DNA of 64,000 nucleotides from Paludisphaera mucosa (GTDB taxonomy: Bacteria > Planctomycetota > Planctomycetia > Isosphaerales > Isosphaeraceae), in assembly GCF_029589435.1 (NCBI RefSeq), contig NZ_JARRAG010000002.1, positions 4,526,001-4,590,000 of the forward strand, in the 5' to 3' direction. Positions within the stretch are counted from its first letter, which is position 1, and each line of letters begins with the position of its first letter. The notes beneath the pieces are model-generated. The model was not told where the DNA came from and searched no databases. It was given only the letters and a program-made list of their open reading frames with translations. Made by a program: the position numbers and the translations under genes. This document shows positions 47,751 to 63,858 of the stretch, in pieces.

Positions 47751-48245
47751 TCAGGCGGAGGCTTCGGGGATCAGGTAGCCCAGGTGGTGGGCGCAATGGA
47801 TGAGCTGGACGCGCATCCATTCGTCGCGGTTCAGGGGGCCGAACAGGTGCGACGGCTGCAGGGGGCCGGCGTACGATTCGAACCGGTCGACGGCCCTTCG
47901 CAGGCGTTCGACGGCCGCGGACTCGTCGCCGTTGGGGGGCGGGACGGTCTCCTTCATCGTCGGGGCCCCAGCGGGCATCTCGCCCCGGGCGATCACTCGA
48001 CGGGCCGCCATCGGGCCGATGGTGTTACGCACCACGAAGCAGAGTGGCCGCATGACGGCCGGCGGCGTCGGGAATCCGTCCATGGGGAACGTGATCCAGT
48101 CGGCCAGGTGGCCGCACGCCTGCGCCAGGTCCCACTTCCCCGCCCGCCGATAGCCGCCCGCCCGCAGCGCCTCGGCCTCGCGGACGGCGTCTTCCAGGGT
48201 CGAGAACTTCAGCTCGCGGCGCTTCAGAGCGGTCGACACGGCCAT
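47751..48245 (-). CDS. DUF1569/DinB-like protein
   Basis: A 164-residue protein from ATG 48245. Helical segments with KWDLAQACGHLADWITFPMD near residue 40 and LIHCAHHLGYLIPE at the C-terminus fit the DUF1569 branch of the DinB/YfiT four-helix fold, in which three histidines bind a metal (His in GHL and in HCAHH). Enzymatic role is unknown; related folds act as metal-dependent thiol transferases. It is upstream of the GntR gene on the same strand but separated from it by the promoter region. Confidence 0.8.
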   Translation of the reverse strand: MAVSTALKRRELKFSTLEDAVREAEALRAGGYRRAGKWDLAQACGHLADWITFPMDGFPTPPAVMRPLCFVVRNTIGPMAARRVIARGEMPAGAPTMKETVPPPNGDESAAVERLRRAVDRFESYAGPLQPSHLFGPLNRDEWMRVQLIHCAHHLGYLIPEASA

Positions 48246-48441: not shown

Positions 48442-48940
48442 ATGAACGTTCGGGAGGAAACCATGCCCGAAGTCACGACCGCCGCCCCCATCCCCGCCGA
48501 TGCGCCCGCCTGGGCCGCGGTTCTGCGCCGCGCCACCGATTACCTGGTCTGCGACTTCGGCGGCGGGCCGCGGCCGTGGAAATTCGCCTGGGTGATCGAC
48601 TTCCAAAAGGCGGGGACCTTCCCGTTCCTCGGGCTCCTGATCGCCTGGCATCACAACACGAGCGCAGCGGCCTGGATCTACCTCGCCATGCACGGCGGCT
48701 ACGGCCTGGTCTGGCTCATCAAGGACCTGGCGTTCCCCGACGCCGCGTGGCAGCGGCGCATCACCATCGGCGGCGGCGTCAACGCCTTCCTGGGCGTACT
48801 GGGCTGGTACTGGGCGTTCGGCTGGTTGCTGATCTCGGGCACCTCGCGGCCGACGTACCCGTTGCCGGACCACGCCTGGTTTTGTCTCTGCATCAGCCTT
48901 TGCCTCGTCGGCAGTGCGATCATGGTCGCGGCGGACGCGC
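48442..48940 (+). pseudogene. steroid 5-alpha-reductase/DUF1295-like gene truncated by an integrated element
   Basis: The frame starts near 48442 (a second start, ATG 48463, follows) and encodes about five membrane helices: AGTFPFLGLLIAWH, YLAMHGGYGLVWLIKDLAFP, GGGVNAFLGVLGWYWAFGWL, and CLCISLCLVGSAIMVAADA. In related proteins the last helix is followed by a conserved catalytic region beginning roughly QKYFTL. Here the sequence changes abruptly after VAADA into unrelated residues up to a stop at 49020. The change coincides with the 3' end of the serine recombinase gene. I take the host gene to be cut at about 48940 by integration. Confidence 0.7.
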
Positions 48941-51007
48941 CATTAGAGGACTGTTCACTCCGTCGGCAGCCACGGGAAGCTGAGGGCCTGCCGTCTTGTC
49001 GACGAGGACGGTGGCGCTGACGCCCCCGGTCGGCACGAACTCGATGGCGTGGACCCGGTGCTGGACCTGCGGGCCGTGCTGATACGGCTTCGTGTGCAGG
49101 ACGATCCGATCGAAGACCTCCCGAAGGGCCAGGGACCGCCGGGACTCCTCCGAGGTCGCGATCTCCTTCCGGACCCGGTAGAGCCTGATCAGGTGCTTGG
49201 ACAGCCAGGCGGTCGCACCCTTGACCTCCGCAGCCAGGTCGACGCTCGTGGCCTTCAGCCGCTCCATCTCGGCCTCCATCGCCTTCATCTTGGAGTGGAC
49301 CTTGGCGCGGGCCGTAGGAAGGTCCTTGAAGCCGATCCACTGCTCGGCGAGGGCGTCGTATTTAGCCTCCAGGGCCGCGAGCGCCTCGCGGTTCTTGTGC
49401 CGCTCGCTGGCCGACGCCCAGGAGTAGACGCACTCCATGAGCCCCCGGTCGATCTTCGCGCCGTTGCTGGGCAGGACGAGGTCTACCATGCCGGCGTCCT
49501 GGTTCGGGACGTGGAACCGCCAGCGGCCGTCGGCGGTGCGCTCGGGGACGTGGACCTGCTGGAGGGCGTTCACCAGGTACTGCTCCATCCGGACGCGGAC
49601 GTCCTCCAGGCCGGACCGGTCCCGGGCGGCCTGCCGGTAGATCTCGGCGATGAACGCGGCCTCCCCGGCGTCGAGCACGGCCTTCAGGTTGGTGCTGGTG
49701 ATGCGGAGATACTCGTCCACGGCCTCCAGGATGCGGGACTGGGGGAACCGCATCGGGGTGCAGCCGGTGTCGCCGCCGCCATAAGTCGTGTAAGTCGGGC
49801 AGGAGTAGCAGGGGAGGGACTTGTGGGCCCCGCGGTAGGAGAGGCAGCCGAAAAGCTTCTTGCCGCACTTCCCGCAATAAACGAGGCCGCTGAGCCAGTA
49901 TTTCTCGGAGCGAGGCCCTCGGGACTTCTTGTTGAGGGTGAGGATGTCGTAGACCCGCCGCCAGGTCTCCTCGGGGACGATGGGCTCGAAAAGGATGGAC
50001 GAGTTGATCCACTCGTCGGGCTTGCGGACGCGGTGGAGGGCGGCGTCGGCCCCCATCTTGAACTCGTCCGGGATGTTCATGTTAATCTCGCCGTCCTTAA
50101 GCTCCACGTACCTGGCGCGGCTGGTCCGGTTGAACGAGAGGACGCCCCTATAGATCGGGTTGGTCAGCAGCTTGTAGACGCCGGCCCCGGTCCACATGCC
50201 CTCGTTGTGGTGGACGGCGGCATCCCTCTTATCGTTAAAGTGCCTCGCAATCATGTAGGTGGGGAGGCCCGTCAGGGCCATCCGGTACATCTCCTTGACG
50301 ACCTCGATGCGGCGGGCGAGGCGAGTGGGCCTGACGGTGAGGCGGTCGCCCTGGAGCCGGTCGCGGGGGAAGTTGCAGGGGCCGTCCCACCGCTCGCGGT
50401 CGTCGGGGCGTCCGGGCCAGACCCGGTAGCGCCGGCACTTCGTCTCGTAGACGACGCGCCAGCGCTCGTCGCCGTCCTCGTCGACGAGCACCGAGTCGAG
50501 GCCGAAGGGGGGCGGGCCCCCAAGCAAGACGCTTTCTTTGGCGAAATCGCGCATCGCCTCGAGCGAGCGGTAGGACTTCTTGGTCAGCTCGGCCATCGAG
50601 TGGTAGGCCCCGATGGTGCTGGTCACCAGGGTGGGCAGATCGACGTCGGTGAGGACGGCGCCGTCGCTGACCTGGACGAGCTTGCAGCCGTTGGTCCTCA
50701 TGGTGTGGACGTAGGAGCCGAACTCCCAGGGATCGCGGAAGCCTAGGCGTTCCTGGTCGTCGATGAGGACGAGGCCGACCTCGCCCTTGGCGACGCGACG
50801 CATGAGTTCCTTGAAACGGGCGCGCTTCTTGGTGCGGGCTTGGTGGCGGGCGCCGCCGATGTCAACGAGGTATTCGTCGACGAGGATGCCGTTCTTGGCG
50901 GCGTACTGGGCGATGTCCTCGAGCTGGAGCTCGACGCTCTTGCCGTCCTGGGTGCCGTCCTTCTTGTTGTCCTTGGACACCCGGCAGTAGCCCAAGTTCT
51001 GTTTCAC
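48920..51007 (-). CDS. large serine recombinase (integrase)
   Basis: A 695-residue serine integrase from GTG 51007, with GGGAGGA about 7 bp upstream. The resolvase domain spans ~1-150 with the nucleophile Ser11 in YCRVSKD. The recombinase domain covers ~230-350 (GVYKLLTNPIYRGVLSFNR). A zinc ribbon follows with Cys378, Cys381, Cys400 and Cys403 (YCGKCGKKLFGC and later CYSCP), then a coiled coil at ~540-620, the part that controls integration versus excision. The last six or so codons and the stop read into host DNA across the attachment junction, so the C-terminus in the circular form should differ. Confidence 0.93.
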   Translation of the reverse strand: MKQNLGYCRVSKDNKKDGTQDGKSVELQLEDIAQYAAKNGILVDEYLVDIGGARHQARTKKRARFKELMRRVAKGEVGLVLIDDQERLGFRDPWEFGSYVHTMRTNGCKLVQVSDGAVLTDVDLPTLVTSTIGAYHSMAELTKKSYRSLEAMRDFAKESVLLGGPPPFGLDSVLVDEDGDERWRVVYETKCRRYRVWPGRPDDRERWDGPCNFPRDRLQGDRLTVRPTRLARRIEVVKEMYRMALTGLPTYMIARHFNDKRDAAVHHNEGMWTGAGVYKLLTNPIYRGVLSFNRTSRARYVELKDGEINMNIPDEFKMGADAALHRVRKPDEWINSSILFEPIVPEETWRRVYDILTLNKKSRGPRSEKYWLSGLVYCGKCGKKLFGCLSYRGAHKSLPCYSCPTYTTYGGGDTGCTPMRFPQSRILEAVDEYLRITSTNLKAVLDAGEAAFIAEIYRQAARDRSGLEDVRVRMEQYLVNALQQVHVPERTADGRWRFHVPNQDAGMVDLVLPSNGAKIDRGLMECVYSWASASERHKNREALAALEAKYDALAEQWIGFKDLPTARAKVHSKMKAMEAEMERLKATSVDLAAEVKGATAWLSKHLIRLYRVRKEIATSEESRRSLALREVFDRIVLHTKPYQHGPQVQHRVHAIEFVPTGGVSATVLVDKTAGPQLPVAADGVNSPLMARPPRP

Positions 51008-51058: not shown

Positions 51059-51253
51059 TCACTTGCGGCGTTTCGCGGGAGTTTGAGCAGGCTTGCTGCC
51101 GGGAGCGGGCGGGGCTCCCCCAATTCGCTCGTAGTGCTCGCGGATGATCTTGTTGATGAGGTAGGCGCGAGAGCGTTCGAGTGCGGCGGCATCGCTGTCC
51201 AGCCTTTCCAGGATGTCGGAATCGACTCGAATGTTAGTGTGGTGCTTCTTCAC
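51059..51253 (-). CDS. ribbon-helix-helix protein
   Basis: A 64-residue protein from GTG 51253, with GGGGGA 8 bp upstream. HTNIRVDSDILERLDSDAAA followed by ERSRAYLINKIIREHYERIG is the Arc/CopG ribbon-helix-helix pattern; a basic Pro/Lys tail ends the protein. It probably regulates element genes such as the integrase, whose start lies 51 bp downstream on the same strand. Antitoxin function is possible but no toxin is adjacent. Confidence 0.75.
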   Translation of the reverse strand: MKKHHTNIRVDSDILERLDSDAAALERSRAYLINKIIREHYERIGGAPPAPGSKPAQTPAKRRK

Positions 51254-51309: not shown

Positions 51310-51705
51310 TCATTTGGCCTTGGTCTTCCTGGCACGCCGGGGCGCGGGGTTGGCGTGCTCGGGTTGCGGCGCCGGGACCTTCTCGTCGGGCACGACCTTG
51401 GCGGCCTTCGGTTTGGCCTGCTTGGCGGCCTCCTGCTTCAACTGCTCGGCGGCTTTGGCGATCAGGGAGAGGACCGTCTCGTGGAGGACGACGGTCGACA
51501 GCTCGCGATCCATCGCCGTGTTCACCACCTCGCACCAGTAGTCGACGCCCTGGTTCTGGAGTTGGTTCTGGCTGGCACCGCTGCGCTCGGCGGTCTCGTG
51601 CATCAGCAGGCGGGTCTCGATTTTTCGATAGGTCACGAGAAGCCGGCTGTGGCCGAGGTGGTTGCGCGACACGTGGGCGATCTTGTTGAGGCGGCTGTCT
51701 TCCAT
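51310..51705 (-). CDS. hypothetical element protein
   Basis: A 131-residue protein from ATG 51705. The first ~95 residues are helical (MEDSRLNKIAHVSRNHLG, ETRLLMHETAERSG, NQGVDYWCEVVNTAMDREL), and the C-terminal ~40 are Lys/Ala/Pro-rich and likely disordered. I do not recognise the family. It lies 56 bp upstream of the RHH gene and behind a plausible promoter, so it probably heads a small operon ending with the integrase. Confidence 0.5.
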   Translation of the reverse strand: MEDSRLNKIAHVSRNHLGHSRLLVTYRKIETRLLMHETAERSGASQNQLQNQGVDYWCEVVNTAMDRELSTVVLHETVLSLIAKAAEQLKQEAAKQAKPKAAKVVPDEKVPAPQPEHANPAPRRARKTKAK

Positions 51706-51776
51706 CGTCGTGGGCTCCGCGTCTTGACGTCCTCGATCCGGACTCTCGCCGGCGGCCATTCATCGCCATCGAATCC

Positions 51777-52455: not shown

Positions 52456-53175
52456 TTAAACGGCCGTGGCGGCCGTCGCGGCGATCGGAATGGCCTTGAG
52501 CCCGTCTCGGCGTGCCCTGGCGGCTTCCACGTGAGCGAGGTTGAGATCGCACCCGACGAAGTTGCGACCGAGGTCATGGCACGCGAAGCCGACGTTGAAA
52601 CTGCCGGCGAAGGGATCGAGGACCCAGCCGTCGGGCGGGCTCGTCAACCCGATCAGCTGCTTGAGTAGTTCGACCGGCTTCTCGTTCTCGTGATGTCGTC
52701 GACTTGGCGCCACGCGAGGATGCCTGAGCACGCTGGGGACGTCGTTGCTGTGGAATTCGGGGCTCGACAGAACGAAGTGGACGATGAATTCGTGCTGGAG
52801 TCGAAAGCTTGTTCCGGTGCCCATCGACCCCTTGTCCCACACCGCAATGGTCCGGTTGCGGAAGCCCGTGGACTCGATGGGGCCGCGCAGGACGTCGAGC
52901 AGGTCCTTGTCGGCGAACATCAGGAGCGAACCGGTCGGCCTGAGCAGTCGCGCGGCCAATCGCCCAAACCACCTCGCCGTGTAGTCCAGGCCGCGTTCGC
53001 TCATGGCCGCGTTGCCGACCTTGAGTTCGTGCTTGCGGGTCCCCTTCGTGGCGCGGCTGGCCCTGGCGTTCGGGAACGGCGGATCGGTGAGGATGGCGTC
53101 GAAACGCACTCGCCCCGTGGCGAGCTTGCTCATGAAATCCAAGGCGTCGGACTCGTCGATGACAAACGTGTGCAT
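52456..53175 (-). CDS. beta-class DNA methyltransferase
   Basis: A 239-residue methyltransferase; I start at ATG 53175, although an in-frame GTG at 53220 exists. Motif IV (DPPF, residues 31-34) precedes the SAM-binding motif I (VLDPFAGSFNVGFACHDLG), which is the beta-class order. DPPF can belong to N6-adenine or N4-cytosine enzymes; the target sequence cannot be read. No restriction endonuclease is adjacent. On an integrated element it probably protects against host restriction or marks the element for its own replication control. Gene order is codirectional with the polymerase, 67 bp downstream of it. Confidence 0.88.
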   Translation of the reverse strand: MHTFVIDESDALDFMSKLATGRVRFDAILTDPPFPNARASRATKGTRKHELKVGNAAMSERGLDYTARWFGRLAARLLRPTGSLLMFADKDLLDVLRGPIESTGFRNRTIAVWDKGSMGTGTSFRLQHEFIVHFVLSSPEFHSNDVPSVLRHPRVAPSRRHHENEKPVELLKQLIGLTSPPDGWVLDPFAGSFNVGFACHDLGRNFVGCDLNLAHVEAARARRDGLKAIPIAATAATAV

Positions 53176-53242
53176 TTGATGCTTTCTAGTTGGATGGGGT
53201 AGTATAAAATGCGCGCCCACGCGCGTTCGCGCGTGGACCGCA

Positions 53243-55366
53243 TCAAGCCGCCGCCAGGCGGCGATTTCTCAGAAATCCGACAGCGACCCGCTCGCCCCAC
53301 TTCGGCTCCAGGACCAGCGGGACCGAGAACCCCGGGACGACCGACAGGTCCGCGACCGCCTCGTCCTTGAACGCCGCGACCGACCCGTCCGGGACTTCGA
53401 ACACCAGCTCGTCGTGAATCTGGAGCAGCAGCCGGGCCCCGTACTTACCCAGGATCGGCTGAACTCGGATCATCTGCCACTTCACGATGTCGGCCGTCCT
53501 GCCCTGGCAGATCGCGTTGAACAGGCCCCGGCAGACCTTGTCCAGGCCCATGTAATCGACCTGCTCCGTCGCCGTTCGCACAGCCCGGATCGACCGCCAC
53601 GAGACGTTCCGGTACGGCAGGTAGTACTCGAGGTTCGGCTTGCAGAGGAGCCCGCACGACCTCCGCACACGGTTCTCCCTCGCCGTGTAGATGGTCTCCC
53701 CCTTCGAGCCGTCGCGACGGCACTCCCAGACCTCGTGGAGGTGGAAGGTCAAGACGTGGCGCCGCGGATCGACCGGCGCGGCCAGGATCCAGTACCACGC
53801 CCCGCCGGTCTGGACCTTGGCCTCGACCAGCTTCTCGTTCACGAGCCAGTGGTGCGCCGAATCCGTCCGCTCGCGACCCATGAACGTCGACGTCCGGCCG
53901 GTGACCGCGATGGAGTGCTCGATGAGCCGACGGAACGCGATCTCGTTCGGGTAGGTCGACTCGAAGCGCTCCGGGCAGGTCTTGGCGACGTCCGTGGTCA
54001 CGCCGAGCTTCTTGCCGAGGCTGGTCGCTCCCATGAGGTTGACGACCGACAGGACGGCCTCCTTGCAGCGGTTCCGCTCGGTCGGATTGGTCCGCTTGTC
54101 GATCCGCTTGCCGAGCATCTTCGTCGCGGCGACCGAGTAGAAATCGCTCGTCGTCGTCTTGAAGTCCCGGGCGAGATCCGAGCCGAGGCTTGGGTCGAAA
54201 TCCATCCGCTTCGGGCCTCGGGGCCGCTTCGGCTCCCAGTAAGGGTTGCGCTTGTCGAGCCTGCCCTCGTAGATGCGATCGAAGGTCGGGTCGCCATGGC
54301 CGAGCCTGACGGCCCGGCCTCGCCGCAGGCCCCTGGTGTGCCGCAGTCGGTCCAGCTTGCAGGTGTCGACCTCGTGGGCGAGGACGCGGACGTCGGCCTG
54401 CGCCAAGTCCATCGTCACCAACTTAAACCCCGGCGAGGCGACCAGCACATCCCGAGAACGGAACGTCAACTCCTCGTGCGACAGCCTCGGGACCTCCAGG
54501 AACCGGGCCTTCGCCTCGTCGTCCCAACCGATCGTCACCGGCTTCGCCATCGCCTGGAGGTTCGGGCGTTGCGCGACGATCCTCCCGGTCGCGAGCCGGT
54601 CGACCATGTCCGATCGGACCCGGCCGTCGGGGTCGATGTGCTTCCCGAACGGCCTGATCCGCGTCAGGAGGGCCTCGGCCTGCCGCATCTCCCCGATGAT
54701 CGTCAACGATCGGAGGACGTCGGGGCGGCCCTCGTAGGCGGTCTTGAGCAGCTTGAAGTGCTCGACGTCCAGCGACGGCTTGCCGTCCGACTTCCGACGC
54801 CGCTTGGCTTCCAGCTTCAGTTCGCCCCAGAGCCAACCGGCGGCCTGTATGTTCGACCGGACCCGGCGGCCGAAGTCGCTCTCGTGCATGGCGTCCAGCC
54901 GCTGGAGGACGCCCTCCAGCCGCGCGACCTGCCGATCGATCTCCCCGGCGTCGACGGCGACTCCGGTCATTCTCATCTCGACCAGGACGGGCGTGATCGG
55001 GGCGCAGACAGCCCGATGATATCCGCGGAGCCGGACCCGCCGCCAACCCGCCAGGCGGCCCATCAGATGGTCGTAAAGCTCCGCGTCACCGACCAGGTCC
55101 GACTTGAGATACCTCCGATGCCGGCCGTAGGACTCCTGGTCGATCAGCCCTTCGAAATGGATTAACACTATCCCGGTCAGCCGAGGGACCACGTCCTTGA
55201 GCTTGTAGTTCGCGTAAGTCTCCAGGCCCTCCACGAACTTGTGGTAGAACCGCTTGACGTGGACCGAGCCACCGTCCCGGGACCGATCCTGATCCAGCAG
55301 CCGCAACGCCTGCATCGTGCAGTGAACCGCCGAAACGGAGGCCGATCTTCCGCAGGTAGAACGTAT
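53243..55366 (-). pseudogene. family A DNA polymerase, polymerase part (split by IS)
   Basis: Encodes the end of a 3'-5' exonuclease domain and a complete polymerase domain. Motif A is MDLAQADVRVLAHEV, motif B RNRCKEAVLSVVNLMGATSLG and motif C LLLQIHDELVFEV, all with their key Asp, Arg/Lys and His-Asp-Glu. The gene is cut at 55363-55366 by an IS701-like insertion; reading across the removed IS gives ATFDTFYLRKIGLRFGGSLH. About 15 codons further a 2-base loss near 55317 (GSLHDA versus MQALRLLDQ) breaks the frame again. The polymerase was likely the element's own replicative enzyme, phage/plasmid style. It cannot now be made in full. Confidence 0.8.
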
Positions 55367-55447
55367 TTCTACTGTAACCGTTCTTCCGGGCTTTCCACCT
55401 GGGCACCAGGTGATCGCTACGGCGACCGGCCCTCCTGTCATCCGATC

Positions 55448-55738
55448 TCAGGCGGGATCGTTGTACCAAGGGCCTTGCCGCCACAATGCGTCAAATTCCT
55501 CGGCGGATAGCGCCGCATCGGCCGAGTGGTCCATCTCGGATTCGTGCCCGTAACTGAGGCCGCCGAATCGGTCCTCATGATGCTCGGAGCTATAGCGGAG
55601 GCGTACCCCGCCGTCGTACTCCTCGACTTGGCGGGAGGGAAACCCGTCGTCGCCGATCTCGAAATACCACCAAGAGCCACCCCAGCCGGCGTATTCGTCG
55701 CCTCGATCATCGTCCCAGCGATATTTGAGGTGGTGCAT
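55448..55738 (-). CDS. IS passenger: small acidic protein of DUF6881-like type
   Basis: A 96-residue Trp/Tyr- and Asp/Glu-rich protein. The pattern WWYFEIGDDGFPSRQVEEYD, then GVRLRYSSEHHEDRFGGLSY and EEFDALWRQG resembles small hypothetical proteins of DUF6881 type that sit near toxin/immunity loci; the family match is from memory and uncertain. It lies inside the IS, starting 12 bp after the point where a frame-corrected transposase would stop (55751), so it is co-transcribed with transposase. Passenger genes in a simple IS of this kind are unusual. Confidence 0.6.
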   Translation of the reverse strand: MHHLKYRWDDDRGDEYAGWGGSWWYFEIGDDGFPSRQVEEYDGGVRLRYSSEHHEDRFGGLSYGHESEMDHSADAALSAEEFDALWRQGPWYNDPA

Positions 55739-55829
55739 GCGCGGCGCCGCCTAACTCGTGTTCGGCCTCGGCCGCCGCGGCGGGAATCCCCCGGCGGCCT
55801 TGTGCCAGTGGTAGATCCTCGACTCCTCG

Positions 55830-57155
55830 TTACGCCGCAGCACGCGGCTGACGACCGCCGCGATCTCCTCCGGGCTCGGTAGCCGATCGCGGAGCAGCCG
55901 GGCCAGCATGTGCCGCGTCTGAGGCACCGTGATCGCCGGGGTTTCCCCCCCCGACTCGCCGCCGCTCCAGCCACAGGAACCACAACGCCACCAGGCAGAG
56001 CGTCATGTGGTGGTGCCAGCCCACCCAACTCCGGACCTCGTAATGATCCAGCCCGACCTCGCCCTTGCCGGCGCCGAACACCTCCTCGATCCGGTGCCGT
56101 AGCCGCTGGGCTCGCACCACCTCGGCCAAGGGGGTCTCGGGGCCGGCGTTGCACAGGGCGTAGTCGATCCGCGACTCACCGACCGGGCGGATCACCAACA
56201 ACCTCTCCTCCGGCCCGAGATGCCTGTCCTGCTTGGCCCGGACACGCACGCTCAACGCATCGACTTCAAGCGGCCCCTTCTCGCCGTCGCGGACCGTGAT
56301 CCGCTCCCAGCGCGACTCCGGCTGGCTCGCCGCCCAGGCGTCGGCCCTCACGAACGGCACCTCGCGTCGGCGGCCGACGCCGGCCCTCTTGCGGGGCGGG
56401 CGACGCCGCTCCAGGTCGCGCACCGTGGTGTTGCAGGGCAGGTCCAGGACATACCGCTCGGCGCGTCGACGCAGCGCGGCGCGGAACTCGGAGGCCCGGC
56501 CCAATTCGTCGTCGCCGACGATCCAGCCGTGGGGCAGGCCGGGCAGGCTCCGGTCGAGCAGGTCCAACGCAATCCGCCAGGTCTCCTGGAACTCGACCTC
56601 CCCGGGGACGTGGCGCTTCTCGCGTCGGGCCTCGTCATCGGCCCACCCCCGGGGCAGGTAGAGCCGGCGGTCCAGCGGGACGTAGCCGGCCTCGGCGGCG
56701 TAGGCCAGGAAGACGCCGATCTGGCAATTCTCGACCTTGCCCAGCCGACCGCACCACTGGCGATCGACGCCGCAGGACTCGGCCCCCTTCTTGGGGAAGC
56801 CGCTGGGATCGACGATCACGACGCCGTCGGGTGCGGCCAATTCCTCGCGGATGTGCTGCCGCAGCTCGCCCATCACGGCCTCGTCGTCCCACTTGCCGGC
56901 GCCGACGAAGAACTGGATCGGCTTGCGGGGCAGGCCGGCCTCGATGGCGATCGGCTCGGAAGTCTTGCGTTCCAGGCCGCCGAGCCGGCCGCGGATGACT
57001 AGGGCGGCGGTGGCTCGCTGCTCGGTGCGATAGAAACGGGGCAGATAGCGTTGGAGGAAGGCCGTCAGGCGTTCGAGCCGACCCCGGACGGTATCGGGCG
57101 TGATCACGGCATCGGCCAGCAGGGCCTGCGCCTCGGGATGATCCAGCAGTGACAT
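55830..57155 (-). CDS. IS701-like DDE transposase, C-terminus frameshifted
   Basis: A 441-residue frame with DDE features: Asp116 in GVVIVDPSGFPKKGAES, Asp215 in GWIVGDDELGRA, and Glu in HRIEEVFGAGKGEVGLDHYE. The last ~45 residues are out of frame: after LERRRVGGG at a run of eight G (near 55945-55952) the sensible continuation TPAITVPQTRHMLARLLRDR, ending IYHWHKAAGG at 55751, is in another frame. Seven G would restore VGGETPAITV. This is either inactivation, a homopolymer sequencing error, or slippage-based expression. Catalytic residues are upstream of the shift. Confidence 0.85.
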   Translation of the reverse strand: MSLLDHPEAQALLADAVITPDTVRGRLERLTAFLQRYLPRFYRTEQRATAALVIRGRLGGLERKTSEPIAIEAGLPRKPIQFFVGAGKWDDEAVMGELRQHIREELAAPDGVVIVDPSGFPKKGAESCGVDRQWCGRLGKVENCQIGVFLAYAAEAGYVPLDRRLYLPRGWADDEARREKRHVPGEVEFQETWRIALDLLDRSLPGLPHGWIVGDDELGRASEFRAALRRRAERYVLDLPCNTTVRDLERRRPPRKRAGVGRRREVPFVRADAWAASQPESRWERITVRDGEKGPLEVDALSVRVRAKQDRHLGPEERLLVIRPVGESRIDYALCNAGPETPLAEVVRAQRLRHRIEEVFGAGKGEVGLDHYEVRSWVGWHHHMTLCLVALWFLWLERRRVGGGNPGDHGASDAAHAGPAAPRSATEPGGDRGGRQPRAAA

Positions 57156-57247
57156 CGGAAGACCTCCGGGCGTGCTGCACGTCCGCCATGAAGGTCGATC
57201 GTAGAAGGGGTGCGTCCAGAAGTCACGAGGAATCGGTTACAGTAGAA

Positions 57248-57541
57248 GTATCGAACGTCGCGCTGTGCATCACGACCGGCGGGCAATCCGGTCGATCGAG
57301 CGGCTCCAAAGCCCAGACGAGCTTGGGGGACGCCGCCGGGCAGGTTCTTGATCGAGACGTGATTCGCGCCGACGAAGAGGATGTGGACCGCACGGTCGAT
57401 GAACAGGCCGACGCTGACGATCTGGTTGTGCCGCTTGACGCCCGTCGTCTCGATGTCGATGACGATCGGCTCCCTGGTCTTCGCCAGGGCGTCGCGGGTG
57501 ATGATGGGGCAATGGATATAGCCGGGCTTGACGGGAATCAT
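57248..57541 (-). pseudogene. family A DNA polymerase, N-terminal exonuclease part
   Basis: Starts at ATG 57541, with AGGAGG 6 bp upstream. REPIVIDIETTGVKRHNQIV is motif Exo I of a DnaQ-like 3'-5' exonuclease (Asp and Glu in DIETTG). After VSIKNLP the frame shifts by an extra G near 57336; the next frame continues AASPKLVWALEPLDRPDCPP then VVMHSATFDT up to the IS at 57247. Together with 53243-55366 it forms one interrupted gene. It follows the ParB-like gene by 82 bp on the same strand. Confidence 0.75.
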
Positions 57542-57623: not shown

Positions 57624-58937
57624 TCAGGCGTCGTAGGCGGGCTGCTCGGCGTCCTCGGACTCTTCGACGAGAGATTTGTCGAGCGGCCGGGCGTCGGCCT
57701 GAAGGGCGACGGGGTCGCTGCTCTCGGGGTGGCGCTCTTCGACGCCGACGCGGGCATGGGCTTGGTCGAGGTTCTCGGGCTTGGCCGGAGCCGGGGCGGG
57801 ATCGGCCGGGGAGGGATCGGCCGGTTTGGCGATCTTGACGTGCTTGAAGGCGTCGGCCCCGATGTTGAATGCCTTGCTCAGCGCGTCTCGGGCGTTGGAC
57901 TTCTGCACTTCGACGCCGAGCATTTTCGCACGGCCGGCCGCGAGTGCCGTGAACATCGGGCCGACTTCCGTGAGCGCTGCGCACAGAGCTTCGAGGACGG
58001 TGGCGAGCTTGTCGTACTCGGGCTCGGCGATGGTCACCGAGATGCCGGGGATGACGAGCTTGGCGACGTTCGTCTTCGGGTCGCGTTCGACGCACGCCCC
58101 GTGCTTGTAGTCGGCCTCGGCCGGGAGGGGCTTGCCCCGCCGAGCCGATTCGACCCAGGCCTCGCCGAGATGCTTGGCGACGCGATTCTTCGGCAGGGAG
58201 AGGCTGTCGGGCAACTTCTTGCCGACCGATACAGCCTTGTCGGCCTTCAGGAAGATCTGGGCCTTGATGGCCATGATGCGGTGCGTCAGGTTCGTTTCGA
58301 GCAGCTTGACGCCGCCCGCGATCCCGCCCTCTGCCGCCTCAAGCATCCGGTTCATGAGGGTGAAGCCGACGGAGCCGTCGTTGACGAAGTCCAGAGCGAA
58401 CTTGTTGCGGTAGACCCTGCGATGATTCTGGAAGGTCGTCTCGGGGGTGCCGCAACTCTTCTTGACCCACTGCGGGTCGGCACCCTCGTCGAAGAGCCTG
58501 CAGACCGCTCGGAAGATGTGGTGCTCGTCGAGGCCGGACCGAGCGAGGTTGTCCTGGAGGGCGTCGACCAGGAGATCGAGTTTGCTGCCCTGGACGACGA
58601 TCACGGGGACGAGCATGTCCGCCGTGAACTTTGGGCAGTCGGCGAGTTCGGCGAGGTGCTTGAGGACGGTCCATCGGGACCGGCCGCCGACGACCACGTA
58701 AGTGTCGCCGTCCTTGATGACGCGGAGGAGGTTGGAGATGTTCTTGACGGTCCCGATGGAGTCCTTGAGGGAGACCATGCGGGGGCAGTCGACGTCGTAA
58801 TCTTTCTTGTCGCGGTTGGCGTAGTCTTCGCTGCCCACGACGATCTTGCTCAGCGGGACGCTGATCGAGGCGACGGCCTGGAGGGTTGAATACGGGACGA
58901 TCTTCTCGGCGGGCTCGGTCTCTTCGGCCTTGGCCAT
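57624..58937 (-). CDS. ParB/Srx-like nuclease-fold protein
   Basis: A 437-residue protein from ATG 58937. Residues ~20-130 (SISVPLSKIVVGSEDYANRD, VSLKDSIGTVKNISNLLRVI, DTYVVVGGRSRWTVLKHLAE) match the ParB N-terminal fold, where the GGRSR stretch takes the place of the usual GE-R-R/GGHRR nucleotide-binding loop. A helical region follows and the C-terminal ~80 residues are Pro/Ala/Glu-rich. On mobile elements such proteins act in partition, regulation or nicking; no ParA is visible in the window. It precedes the polymerase on the same strand. Confidence 0.75.
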   Translation of the reverse strand: MAKAEETEPAEKIVPYSTLQAVASISVPLSKIVVGSEDYANRDKKDYDVDCPRMVSLKDSIGTVKNISNLLRVIKDGDTYVVVGGRSRWTVLKHLAELADCPKFTADMLVPVIVVQGSKLDLLVDALQDNLARSGLDEHHIFRAVCRLFDEGADPQWVKKSCGTPETTFQNHRRVYRNKFALDFVNDGSVGFTLMNRMLEAAEGGIAGGVKLLETNLTHRIMAIKAQIFLKADKAVSVGKKLPDSLSLPKNRVAKHLGEAWVESARRGKPLPAEADYKHGACVERDPKTNVAKLVIPGISVTIAEPEYDKLATVLEALCAALTEVGPMFTALAAGRAKMLGVEVQKSNARDALSKAFNIGADAFKHVKIAKPADPSPADPAPAPAKPENLDQAHARVGVEERHPESSDPVALQADARPLDKSLVEESEDAEQPAYDA

Positions 58938-59190: not shown

Positions 59191-59622
59191 CTAGATCAGG
59201 TCGTACGGGACGTCCCGCTCGACGAAGCCGAGCATGGCGCATCGTTCGGGATCGGTGGATATCGGCTTCAGGAGGCCATCGCCGTACCGGCGGTAGTAGA
59301 TGCGCCAACGCCTGGCGACGCCGATGAGGACCTTGTTGCCCCTGAAGACGTTGTCGAACGTCGCATTGTGCTTGTCCTCGTCCAGGAAGTGGACGGTGCC
59401 AAAGCCGGGCAGTGGGTTGGGGAAGACGATCGTCGCGATAAGGTGGGCGATCCCCACCTGCCGCTTGACCTTGCCGCCAGGTCGATAGGGCTGGAAGTGC
59501 GGCGCGTCGCGGGATTCGGGGGTCGAGACCGCCAGCCAGTCGCGACACCGGTCCGACCAGATCTTCCCGTCGAGCGTGATCCAGTAACCGGGCCAACCCT
59601 GATCCGCAAGCTCCCGCATCAT
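59191..59622 (-). CDS. HNH/NUMOD-like protein, probably degenerate
   Basis: A 143-residue protein starting at ATG 59622 or 59619 behind GGAGGG. It begins with a NUMOD4-like opening (GYWITLDGKIWSDRCRDWL) and has an HNH-endonuclease-like core, VGIAHLIATIVFPNPLPGFG then TVHFLDEDKHNATFDNVFRG. The first His of the usual V-H-H-I-D is replaced (VHFLD), but the N-x-x-x-x-N part is kept. It may be an HNH homing-type nuclease or a relic of one. It is divergent from the initiator-like gene across a 276-bp control region. Confidence 0.6.
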   Translation of the reverse strand: MMRELADQGWPGYWITLDGKIWSDRCRDWLAVSTPESRDAPHFQPYRPGGKVKRQVGIAHLIATIVFPNPLPGFGTVHFLDEDKHNATFDNVFRGNKVLIGVARRWRIYYRRYGDGLLKPISTDPERCAMLGFVERDVPYDLI

Positions 59623-59738
59623 GATCCTGCCCTCCTCAAAGAAGTCTAGATCACGCGAGCCCGCAGGACAGGGATTACTTGCAGGTCGCGTCAACGTATT
59701 GGCATAAATAATAGGTGCAAATATCACGTGTGAGTGGG

Positions 59739-59833: not shown

Positions 59834-59898
59834 GCGCCCGCCAACCCTTTCCCAATCTTTCGGGGGTGGCGGGCGGTGGTGTGCATAGGCACGCACCG

Positions 59899-61851
59899 AT
59901 GAGCAAACTGGAATTCACCCTGCTCGACAAGGCCCTGATCAAGTCCCGCGGCCTGAACCACGTCCGCAAGCTCGGCGTCCTCGCCGCCTACCAGGGCGGG
60001 ACCAACCGCGTCGTCTTCGACAACCGGCTGTGGGAGGAACTCGCCCCCGCCTGGGGCGTCACCAGGCCGCAGTACGTCGCGGCCGTCGGCCGACTCCAGA
60101 ACTGGCCAACCGTCGGCTGGCTCACGCGGGTGGAGAACTCGCGGTACGACCTCGGCCCCGCCCCCGGGCCCGGCGACTTCATCAAGGTGCCCAACCTCCT
60201 CTTCGAGTCCGGCCTGGCCCCGTGGGCCATCCTCGGCGTCGTCGGCGTCCTGTCCCACCCGGCCGGGAGCAGGGGCAACGACGTCTTCGCACTTTACAAG
60301 GTGAGCAAGCTGAAGGAGCGCTACCCGACCATCGCCCACTCGATGCCGCAGGAGCGGACGGCCGCCAGCGGCAAGCGGGGCGGGTGGAGCGGCCAGTGCG
60401 AGAAGGCCAAACGGTTCGCCGACGCCCTGGAGACCGCCGGGGTGGTCGAGATCGTCAGCGCCCGCCGGCCCAGGACCGCGGCCAAGGTCAAAGTGCACAT
60501 CACGGAGGCGACGATCGCCGCCCTGAAAGCCCTCGCTCCCTGGACCGTCGCAATTTCCAAGAACGAGTCCAGAGGTAGCGACGATGGCACCGTCGCCGCG
60601 ACAGCCCCCACCTCTGGGCGCTCCAAGGGCCGGGCGAAGGCGGCGACCGTCGCTAACCTTGGACAGGTCGCCGAAGCCACTGTCGCCACCCTTGAAATAC
60701 CACCGTCGCCACCCGTAAAAAACGAGAGACCGCGAGAGACCCAGGTTAGGTTGAAAGACCCAGAAAGTCTAAAAAAGGGACGTGAACGGGAAACCGGAAG
60801 CCGACAGGCGGATCTGTTCGCCGCTGACGCGGCGAACGCAGACGAGCTTTCAGCTCGCGGCCGGCGGGGAGTGGCGACCGAGTCCGTGCATCGGGACGAC
60901 CCTGGATCCTCCGTACCGGCCTACTCCTGGAACTTCCAGGTTCCGCCGGACCTGGATCCCGAAGACAAGGTTTCGGTAAGCATGGATCCCGCAGTCATAA
61001 TCGACAACTCCTGGAAGCCCTTCGTTCTGTCCAAGCCCGGGATCCTGCTGGCCGCGGAACACGCTCAGGCTTCGGGCTCGGAGTTCCTGGTTCCCGCGTT
61101 CTTCGCCGGCGACCTGGATCCCGACTTCGTCTACTCGTTGGGCCGCCCTGCGGCTTCACTGGCCATCGGTCGCACCGCCGACGCTGCGGGCGGCCACGGA
61201 CGGGCCCCGCGCTCCAAGCCTCAGGAAGGGCAAGAGAAGGCCCTCCCGGGGAAGGAGTCTCTGAAAGCCAAGGAGCGGGCGAAAGTGGCGGCCGGCAACG
61301 GTGCCTCGGACTCCAGCGGCGACGAGGGCTACCGCGCGTTCGTCAGGCTCTACAACTCGGTGGTCCACGGCGCCCACGTCGAGTACATCAATCTGGGCCA
61401 CGCGCCGCCGAAGTCGCACTACGTGAGTCCCTCGATCGAGCCGAAGGTGCGGAAGGCCTGGACCATGCGGCGCGACCACTTCCAGGAGACGATGGTCGAG
61501 TGCCTCGAAGCTCCATCTCGGTCCCGCTTCCTGCTCGACCTGTCGAAGGGGGTGCCCGGCAAGGATGGTTCCGGGACGGTCCCCTGGGAGTTAAACCCGC
61601 TCCACCTGCTTCGGAGGTGGGACGACGTCCTGGCCGGAAGGTACGAGGGGTTGTTCGGCGAGAAGGTTCGGCCGATCGCGGAGCGTCTGCAAGACCCGAC
61701 CTGCCAGTTGTGGGCCGAGTGCCGCAGGCTCGGCGCTGATCCGAAGACCGTGCTCTCGAAAGTGTCCTGCGGATTCGCCCCGTACGAGATCCAGTTCGCG
61801 CTGCACCACGTCCGTCGACTCAAGCTGGCGGAGAAGCATCTCGCCGCATGA
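59899..61851 (+). CDS. replication-initiator-like protein
   Basis: A 650-residue protein from ATG 59899. The N-terminal ~190 residues look like winged-helix DNA-binding repeats (LDKALIKSRGLNHVRKLGVL, VTRPQYVAAVGRLQNWPTVG, KVSKLKERYPTIAHSMPQER). A long low-complexity middle follows. The C-terminal ~150 residues (HFQETMVECLEAPSRSRFLL, WELNPLHLLRRWDDVLAGRY) resemble the C-terminal region of phage and plasmid replication proteins, where an F-L-x-G / W ... NPxHLLxxxDxxLxGxY pattern is common. I therefore call it initiator-like, not proven. It is the first gene of the plus-strand arm of the element. Confidence 0.55.
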   Translation: MSKLEFTLLDKALIKSRGLNHVRKLGVLAAYQGGTNRVVFDNRLWEELAPAWGVTRPQYVAAVGRLQNWPTVGWLTRVENSRYDLGPAPGPGDFIKVPNLLFESGLAPWAILGVVGVLSHPAGSRGNDVFALYKVSKLKERYPTIAHSMPQERTAASGKRGGWSGQCEKAKRFADALETAGVVEIVSARRPRTAAKVKVHITEATIAALKALAPWTVAISKNESRGSDDGTVAATAPTSGRSKGRAKAATVANLGQVAEATVATLEIPPSPPVKNERPRETQVRLKDPESLKKGRERETGSRQADLFAADAANADELSARGRRGVATESVHRDDPGSSVPAYSWNFQVPPDLDPEDKVSVSMDPAVIIDNSWKPFVLSKPGILLAAEHAQASGSEFLVPAFFAGDLDPDFVYSLGRPAASLAIGRTADAAGGHGRAPRSKPQEGQEKALPGKESLKAKERAKVAAGNGASDSSGDEGYRAFVRLYNSVVHGAHVEYINLGHAPPKSHYVSPSIEPKVRKAWTMRRDHFQETMVECLEAPSRSRFLLDLSKGVPGKDGSGTVPWELNPLHLLRRWDDVLAGRYEGLFGEKVRPIAERLQDPTCQLWAECRRLGADPKTVLSKVSCGFAPYEIQFALHHVRRLKLAEKHLAA

Positions 61852-61943: not shown

Positions 61944-62516
61944 ATGGACCGATGCTTGAAGCGTTGGGGGGCCGGCGACGACCCCATGATGAGCGGCTTG
62001 ATCCTCGGCGGCCACGAGGTCAGCTACTCGGAGCTGGCCGAGTGGCCTACGGACAGGCTGCGAGCCGTCGAGGTCGGCGTACCGCCCGACCTCGTCGCCG
62101 AGTACGAGGCGGGCGGCGGCGGTTTCGAGCCCGGGGGCGTGCTTTCCTGGCTCCTGGCGCGGGCCGAGCCCGTCGACCGCGGTTGGACGACCATCAGCGT
62201 CTACAGCCGCTCGGACGCCTTGAGGGACGGCGTCCTCTGCGACGTCTCGGGGTTGGCTCGCGAGGCGAAGTTCAAGGTCCCCGTCGCGGTCACCGCCGCC
62301 GTCCGGGCCCGCTGCATCCTCATCCCGCCGGGCGTCGAAGCTCAGGACGAGGCGGGCCGGACCTGGGATCTCGTCTGGATGCTCATGGTCGCCGTCGGTC
62401 GGGATGGGCTCGACCGAGACGCGATCAGCTATCAAGTGTTGGTGAGGAACGACGACGGGAGCCCGAAGCCCGTCCGGTTGAAGGCGATTTGCGCGCCTGG
62501 CGACGAGGGCGCCCCG
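61944..62516 (+). pseudogene. DUF6573-type gene, interrupted by ISAs1 element
   Basis: Start ATG 61944 with GGAGG about 8 bp upstream. The conserved part is TTISVYSRSDALRDGVLCDV, SGLAREAKFKVPVAVTAAV, DEAGRTWDLVWMLMVAVG and LKAICAPGDEGAP, which fits the DUF6573 family found on plasmids and mobile elements; its function is unknown. The frame stops making sense at 62516, where an ISAs1 element begins. The last codons, CITIMLPDED and a TAA, are found at 63826-63858 on the other side, so the intact protein would have ~201 residues. Confidence 0.8.
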
Positions 62517-63815
62517 CAGGGCCAGCGCTCACTAACATGTCGATCCTCTAACGACTTCCATCAAGTAGTCGTCGCTCCATCCGCATCCGCGTCGCTTCAT
62601 GGCGACGCTGTCCCGCCCGGGGTGCCGCTTGAGCAGGGACAGGCAGAAGCGATTCAGCCAGGCCATGTTCTGGCGCAGGTGCTCCTCTCGGATTCGCGAC
62701 TCGTCCTCGCGGAAGGTCACGTCGAGGGTCCAGTGGCAGCCGTTCTCGATCCCCCAGCGCGAGCGGACCGCGTGGGCGAACGCCTTAGCGTCGGGCTCGA
62801 CCGGCAGGCTGCTGATGTAGTAGCGGACGTCCTCCGCCGTCTTTCCCTCGCGGACGACCTCGGAGATCGCCACGCCGATCGACCTCAGCCCCCGCCACGC
62901 CTCGAAGCCGGGGAGGTCCTTCGGGGCCTCGAGCTGGATGTACGTCCGCGACTCGCGACGGCCGTGGGCCGCCTCATCGACCTGGAGGCGGCCGACCGGC
63001 TCCCCCGCGAACCCTTCGTCCCAACGCCCCAGGACGTGGGCGACGGCCGCCCGATGCAGCGTCCCCTGGTTCCCCTTCAGCGCCAGCACGTAGTCGCCGC
63101 CGGCGGCGACGACCGCCCCGGCGACCTCCCTCTGGCAGCCCATCGCGTCGATCGTCACGACGCCGCCGGAGACGTCGATCAGCTTCAGCAACTCGGGGAT
63201 CGCAGCGATCTCGTTCGACTTCTCATCGCAAGCGACCTGGCCCAGCGACAGGCCGTACTCGCTCGCCCAGGCGGTCACCGAGTGCAACGCCCCCAGGCCG
63301 TTCTTGCGGTCGTGGCTGCGACGCAGGGTCTTGCCGTCGATCGCCAGCGTGGGCCGCTCGACGCCCGTCTCGGCCGCGGCCTCGTCGCGCAGCGACCGCA
63401 GCCAGGCGGCGAAGCACGGCTGGAACGCCTCGGGCCGCAGGGCCATCAACACGCGCCGGAAGACGTCCTTGCACGGCACCCCGTTCGGCAGCGGCAGGAT
63501 CGACTCGAGCAGACCCCGCTTGAACGCCGCCCACCGCGCGATCGCCGTCGGCCCGGAGGCCCCCGCCAGGACCGCGACCAGGGCGATCACCACCACCGAG
63601 GCCAGCGGATGCTTGCGATTGATCTCCGACCGCGGGTCATCCAGGTCCTGGAAGAACGCCGCCACCTCGTCCATACCGAACCGGCTCGCATCCGCCATCG
63701 ACCGACCCCCGTCCCCCGCGCCGTGACGCCGCCTGGAGATGGTCTAACCGATGACTCGATCCGGCGCAAGCCGCCAGACTCCGCCGAATCTACCTATAAG
63801 TGCGCGCTGGCCCTG
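62517..63815 (-). mobile_element. ISAs1-family insertion sequence, 1,299 bp
   Basis: Ends are near-perfect inverted repeats: CAGGGCCAGCGCTCAC at 62517 and, read inward from 63815, CAGGGCCAGCGCGCAC (15 of 16). The 10 bp GGGCGCCCCG is duplicated at 62507-62516 and 63816-63825. Deleting the IS and one copy rejoins the DUF6573-type gene in frame. Size, CAGGGC ends and 8-10 bp duplications are all typical of ISAs1. It carries one transposase gene and no passenger. Confidence 0.93.
62532..63698 (-). CDS. ISAs1-family transposase
   Basis: A 388-residue DDE transposase, full length for the family. Asp121 in LAIDGKTLRRS, Asp184 in VTIDAMGCQREVA and Glu318 in RWGIENGCHWTLDV form the catalytic triad. 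The gene ends 15 bp inside the left inverted repeat and begins 117 bp from the right one, as in other family members. The frame is intact, so the element could still be active. Confidence 0.95.
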   Translation of the reverse strand: MADASRFGMDEVAAFFQDLDDPRSEINRKHPLASVVVIALVAVLAGASGPTAIARWAAFKRGLLESILPLPNGVPCKDVFRRVLMALRPEAFQPCFAAWLRSLRDEAAAETGVERPTLAIDGKTLRRSHDRKNGLGALHSVTAWASEYGLSLGQVACDEKSNEIAAIPELLKLIDVSGGVVTIDAMGCQREVAGAVVAAGGDYVLALKGNQGTLHRAAVAHVLGRWDEGFAGEPVGRLQVDEAAHGRRESRTYIQLEAPKDLPGFEAWRGLRSIGVAISEVVREGKTAEDVRYYISSLPVEPDAKAFAHAVRSRWGIENGCHWTLDVTFREDESRIREEHLRQNMAWLNRFCLSLLKRHPGRDSVAMKRRGCGWSDDYLMEVVRGSTC

Positions 63816-63858
63816 GGGCGCCCCGTGCATCACGATCATGCTGCCCGATGAGGATTAA

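Follow-up and report, generated by a model that had tools for sequence, protein, structure and literature searches.

A large serine integrase beside a split membrane-enzyme gene in Paludisphaera mucosa: a probable remnant of a decayed mobile element

A membrane-enzyme gene split at position 48940

We analysed a stretch of 64,000 nucleotides, called the window here, from the genome of Paludisphaera mucosa (G000:C2:4526001-4590000; 8.2 Mb in nine contigs). Its positions are counted from the first letter of the stretch, and positions further right are given on locus L007. The left side of the locus carries these features:

47751-48242, minus strand: 163-aa protein, chromosomal neighbour left of the junction; 73% identical to a neighbour in G001, which holds the same position beside the reductase there
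48442-48940, plus strand: truncated membrane protein gene (5' part only), DUF1295/ICMT/PEMT/steroid-reductase superfamily; orthologues in G001, G003, G004, G005 and G014; about 90 codons missing at the 3' end
48939-48941, no strand: junction and putative attL crossover region; in an alignment with three intact orthologues, 48940 is the last base with host homology

A search with the frame at 48442-48940 found orthologues in four genomes of the same genus (G001, G003, G004 and G005) and in one of the same family (G014). In a five-sequence alignment, orthologues show 65-71% overall identity and the homology extends up to the residues VAADA. At the DNA level, comparison with three intact orthologues showed that identity runs through GGCGGACGCGC, which ends at 48940, and is lost at 48941. 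An earlier note on this DNA had claimed that the frame loses sense after VAADA at about 48940 and that the protein should run about 80 residues further. The first claim was borne out and the second was close, as the four same-genus orthologues, read at full length, continue for about 90 residues with the pattern Q-K-[YF]-F-x-L-R...RRxWWLLPP. The split of the membrane-enzyme gene at the junction is thereby confirmed. The missing C-terminal part matches the Pfam families DUF1295, PEMT, ICMT and Steroid_dh, and on these matches the name 'membrane reductase-like' is fair for the superfamily, a methyltransferase being equally possible.

The note had proposed a search for the 3' half of the gene to the right of 64000. 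A 93-aa query made from this half gave no match there or anywhere else in the whole G000 genome at E<=1, whereas the same query matched five of six relatives (G001, G003, G004, G005 and G014). The truncated enzyme gene is probably just a casualty. To our knowledge, a DUF1295/ICMT-superfamily gene has not been reported as an integration target. We also considered integration targeted to a tRNA gene, and this was rejected when ARAGORN detected no tRNA in the window or in the next 76 kb.

The integrase and a related prophage boundary

The DNA to the right of the junction opens with a gene that reads toward it:

48920-51007, minus strand: large serine recombinase (integrase) of 695 aa; Pfam Resolvase, Recombinase and Zn_ribbon_recom; PHROG 95 integrase, E 4e-52

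The claim that a serine integrase of this length ends at the junction was thus correct. Its domains are complete (PF00239, PF07508 and PF13408, each above its cut-off) and lie in one long protein, and the N-terminal catalytic-serine region is conserved, with GYCRVSKD in register with AYVRVSTD of an integrase from G002. That genome, from the same genus, was the only one among 45 of the family to have a relative at E<=1e-20, at 35% identity over 671 aligned positions. Wider searches returned only partial matches of 24-37% identity in genome contigs, a single partial match of 23% in viral contigs and one distant match (G432) in 392 genomes of the phylum. Close relatives were not found in phage and plasmid records, the plasmid records giving weak partial recombinase matches and short polymerase matches with 7-11% coverage. 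The integrase clade in this bacterial group is, by these comparisons, apparently divergent and small.

The conserved part of the integrase spans about 49001-51007, and the alignment to the G002 relative stops at residue 669 of 695. The last 26 residues (670-695) are without counterpart in that relative and run toward the junction. Over 48920-49000 the integrase frame was seen to cross the junction into host DNA, and the final seven codons are DNA of the host gene. Since the frame enters host DNA, its last residues would differ between the integrated and the circular form.

The G002 integrase lies at the edge of a prophage of about 38 kb (C1, about 6558037-6596275; loci L029, L030 and L042). 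This insert splits comM, a gene of the ComM/ChlI family, whose 3' part now lies at 6557815-6558036 and whose 5' part lies at 6596288-6596455, and alignment of both ends with an intact copy revealed a clean split with no evident sequence loss. Its interior contains terminase, portal, HK97-type capsid, connector and tail genes, and it is an ordinary, apparently complete, tailed-phage prophage. Two further genes inside it, one with GmrSD_N and Schlafen/AlbA domains and one with a SLOG domain, could be defence cargo. In G002 we counted 65 bp from the conserved end of the integrase to the crossover region; in the window, the same point lies about 48 bp from the junction. The best evidence on the origin of the junction is this match in spacing and layout with the G002 prophage boundary, because of which 48939-48941 is likely an attL made by the integrase at 48920-51007. 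We do not claim a core dinucleotide 'GC' shared by both elements; it fits, but 'CC' fits G002 too.

Replication-type genes, IS elements and the return of the chromosome

Beyond the integrase, the window carries the following features:

51059-51253, minus strand: small ribbon-helix-helix (CopG-type) protein; RHH_1, E 1.1e-7
51310-51759, minus strand: 149-aa ORF; no significant match in Pfam, PHROGs or NCBIfam
52456-53220, minus strand: DNA N4/N6 methyltransferase; Pfam N6_N4_Mtase, E 9e-25; PHROG 67, E 6e-39
53243-55363, minus strand: 3' main part of an IS-interrupted family A DNA polymerase gene; Pfam DNA_pol_A, E 2.7e-37; PHROG 17, E 1e-28
55364-57250, no strand: IS inside the polymerase gene, with a DDE_5 transposase (55830-57155) and 17-bp terminal inverted repeats (55364-55380 and 57234-57250)
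57251-57541, minus strand: IS-severed fragment, probably the start of the polymerase gene; exonuclease-like motif IVIDIETTG by eye; exoribonuclease Pfam match at E 0.25, not significant
57624-58937, minus strand: 437-aa protein, judged ParB/Srx-like by eye from the motif VVVGGRSRW; no family match; the listed ORF reaches 59039
59191-59727, minus strand: HNH-endonuclease-like protein (weak); PHROG 959 (phrog_959), E 1e-4
59890-61851, plus strand: 653-aa orphan protein, called 'initiator-like' in the earlier note; no family match
62508-63824, no strand: IS with imperfect inverted repeats, carrying a DDE_Tnp_1 transposase (62532-63698)

The claim of a replication-type gene set held for the family A polymerase and the DNA methyltransferase, while neither the 'ParB-like' nor the 'initiator-like' protein has a family match and the HNH match is weak. 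No relative of the ParB-like protein was found in the other 44 family genomes, in phage records or in viral contigs. Searches of 294 genomes from the phylum, of viral contigs and of phage records gave no relative of the 653-aa protein, and viral contigs gave none of the polymerase. Comparison of the G002 prophage ORFs with the ParB-like and 653-aa proteins (two protein pairs) revealed no similarity, and single-sequence structure models of the two were of unusable quality (mean pLDDT 36 and 35). The replication module therefore appears to have few or no close relatives in the databases searched.

What kind of element this module came from can be read in two ways. The polymerase, methyltransferase and HNH proteins match phage families (PHROGs) and the nearest relative of the integrase is a prophage integrase, so that the parent element was likely a phage. 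A plasmid, or a plasmid-like integrative element, is a possible but doubtful parent, a question of parent type and not of integration. An element with its own polymerase and with partition-like and putative initiator proteins would suit such an origin, as would the lack of phage relatives of the latter two proteins and of any terminase, portal, capsid or tail gene among the main ORFs searched in the 26 kb, whose right side has undergone deletion or replacement. However, the phage-side matches speak against it, the main ORFs scanned gave no hit to relaxases, mating-pair genes or plasmid replication families, and the matches to plasmid records are short or weak. A phage parent thus remains the preferred reading.

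To the right of the window, the insert continues with the following:

L007:158-820: small serine resolvase, a frameshifted pseudogene as read from the sequence
L007:870-6718: 1554-aa hybrid histidine kinase with PAS, HisKA, Hpt and two receiver domains, and SpoIIE-type response regulator
L007:8910-10324: second DDE_5 IS
L007:10560-11011: degenerate ORF resembling a membrane protein, lying after the last IS and before the chromosome resumes; its 3' part has no match in Pfam

An IstB fragment and an IS5-family transposase also lie here, and the right-hand 12 kb or so of the insert consists of the two-component gene pair, IS copies and pseudogenes. The best match of the response regulator is a paralogue in G000 at 36% identity (35% elsewhere). 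Because the regulator lacks a close counterpart in the genus, the pair may be either cargo or a separate arrival.

In both G003 and G001 the reductase is directly followed by an ORF of about 55 residues and then by a WecA-like glycosyltransferase, and in G003 an exopolysaccharide-type cluster comes after these genes. In G000 the post-reductase genes reappear from L007:11036 (window-equivalent about 75,036), with identities to G003 of 69% for the small ORF, 89% for the WecA-like transferase and 82% for a Wzy-like protein; the order in G001 agrees at the small ORF and the transferase. The insert is thus bracketed by synteny upstream and downstream. By lengths read off the loci, about 26.1 kb (48941 to about 75,035) stands in place of about 360 bp of ancestral chromosome, of which about 265 bp was reductase coding sequence. 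In G005 (locus L012), we observed an intact reductase followed by entirely different genes. As the post-reductase genes differ there, the chromosome to the right of the reductase varies within the genus.

The bracketing bears on whether the assembly could have joined two unrelated stretches at 48940. Nothing directly supports such a chimera, which we regard as highly improbable, since the gene order of the relatives is taken up again beyond the insert, an outcome that a chimera would not produce, and the junction lies in a contig of 5.27 Mb in a nine-contig genome rated 100% complete.

Origin of the insert and comparison with known systems

A rearrangement or IS-mediated breakpoint could also have produced the junction, with the integrase beside it by chance. 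In favour of this, the region is IS-rich, no attR carrying the rest of the target gene is present, the 3' half of the target being nowhere in the genome, and a loss of about 360 bp of chromosome is unexpected from pure integration. Against it, no IS end was recognised at the left junction, host coding DNA passes straight into the integrase tail, and the integrase end abuts the junction at nearly the spacing of the clean attL in G002. We therefore consider a chance breakpoint unlikely.

We favour, with good though not full confidence, the reading that the locus is the decayed remnant of an integrase-inserted mobile element, most likely a temperate phage, which kept its attL and lost its right end together with the 3' half of the host gene. 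An element with a large serine recombinase would have integrated site-specifically in the 3' third of the DUF1295/ICMT-superfamily gene, leaving an attL at 48939-48941, just beyond the integrase 3' end; the integrase at 48920-51007 probably made this junction. In the decay that followed, an IS would have broken the polymerase gene and further IS elements and foreign genes would have piled up. A deletion at the right end would have taken attR, the last 265 bp or so of the host gene and a short intergenic stretch. This loss probably came later, and the IS copies at that end suggest that it was IS-mediated. As attR and the host 3' part are lost, excision and repair of the host gene would no longer be possible.

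Several observations count against this explanation. The crossover is unproved because no attR or attP survives, the relative of the integrase is just 35% identical and sits in a different target gene, and the scanned ORFs hold no phage structural gene, with the ParB-like and 653-aa proteins lacking phage relatives. The earlier note had proposed a new integrative element using the host gene as its attachment site. The serine-integrase insertion and the junction near 48940 are supported, but an intact new element is not, given the absent 3' half and attR, the IS-broken polymerase gene and a nearest demonstrable integrase relative in a tailed-phage prophage. Overall, the element represents no new type; it is a relic of a fairly ordinary sort. 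It is conceivable, and we put it forward tentatively, that an undescribed Planctomycetota lineage of temperate phages or phage-plasmids is represented here by its replication half, made up of the integrase, the RHH protein, the methyltransferase, the exonuclease-polymerase, the ParB-like protein and the 653-aa protein, with this as the sole copy found.

Large serine recombinases are in use as DNA-integration tools. Their mechanism is well described: attP recombines with attB, and the resulting attL and attR flank the inserted element (PMC10083194). The element resembles such elements generally (PMC10083194) in the domain order of its integrase, the boundary position of the gene and the use of a host gene as target, and differs from them in retaining a single boundary, with attR and the other part of the gene gone. 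The recombinase XisF of the fdxN element and the integrases of PHROG 95 belong to the same recombinase superfamily. However, the integrase scores far under the curated cut-off of the NCBIfam XisF model (67.8 bits against 375; E 9e-19), and no programmed excision can restore a gene whose other half is missing, for which reason a programmed excisable element of the fdxN or sigK-skin type was rejected. With the G002 prophage it shares a homologous integrase whose 3' end lies beside the boundary and an insertion within a protein-coding gene, whereas that prophage keeps both host-gene parts, has tailed-phage structural genes and occupies another target gene. Between them, the two loci inform on a small, divergent clade of large serine recombinases, the decayed one with a candidate attL and the apparently complete one in G002 with both attL and attR, and what is specific to the present locus is this divergent integrase clade, its target gene and a replication module apparently without close relatives.
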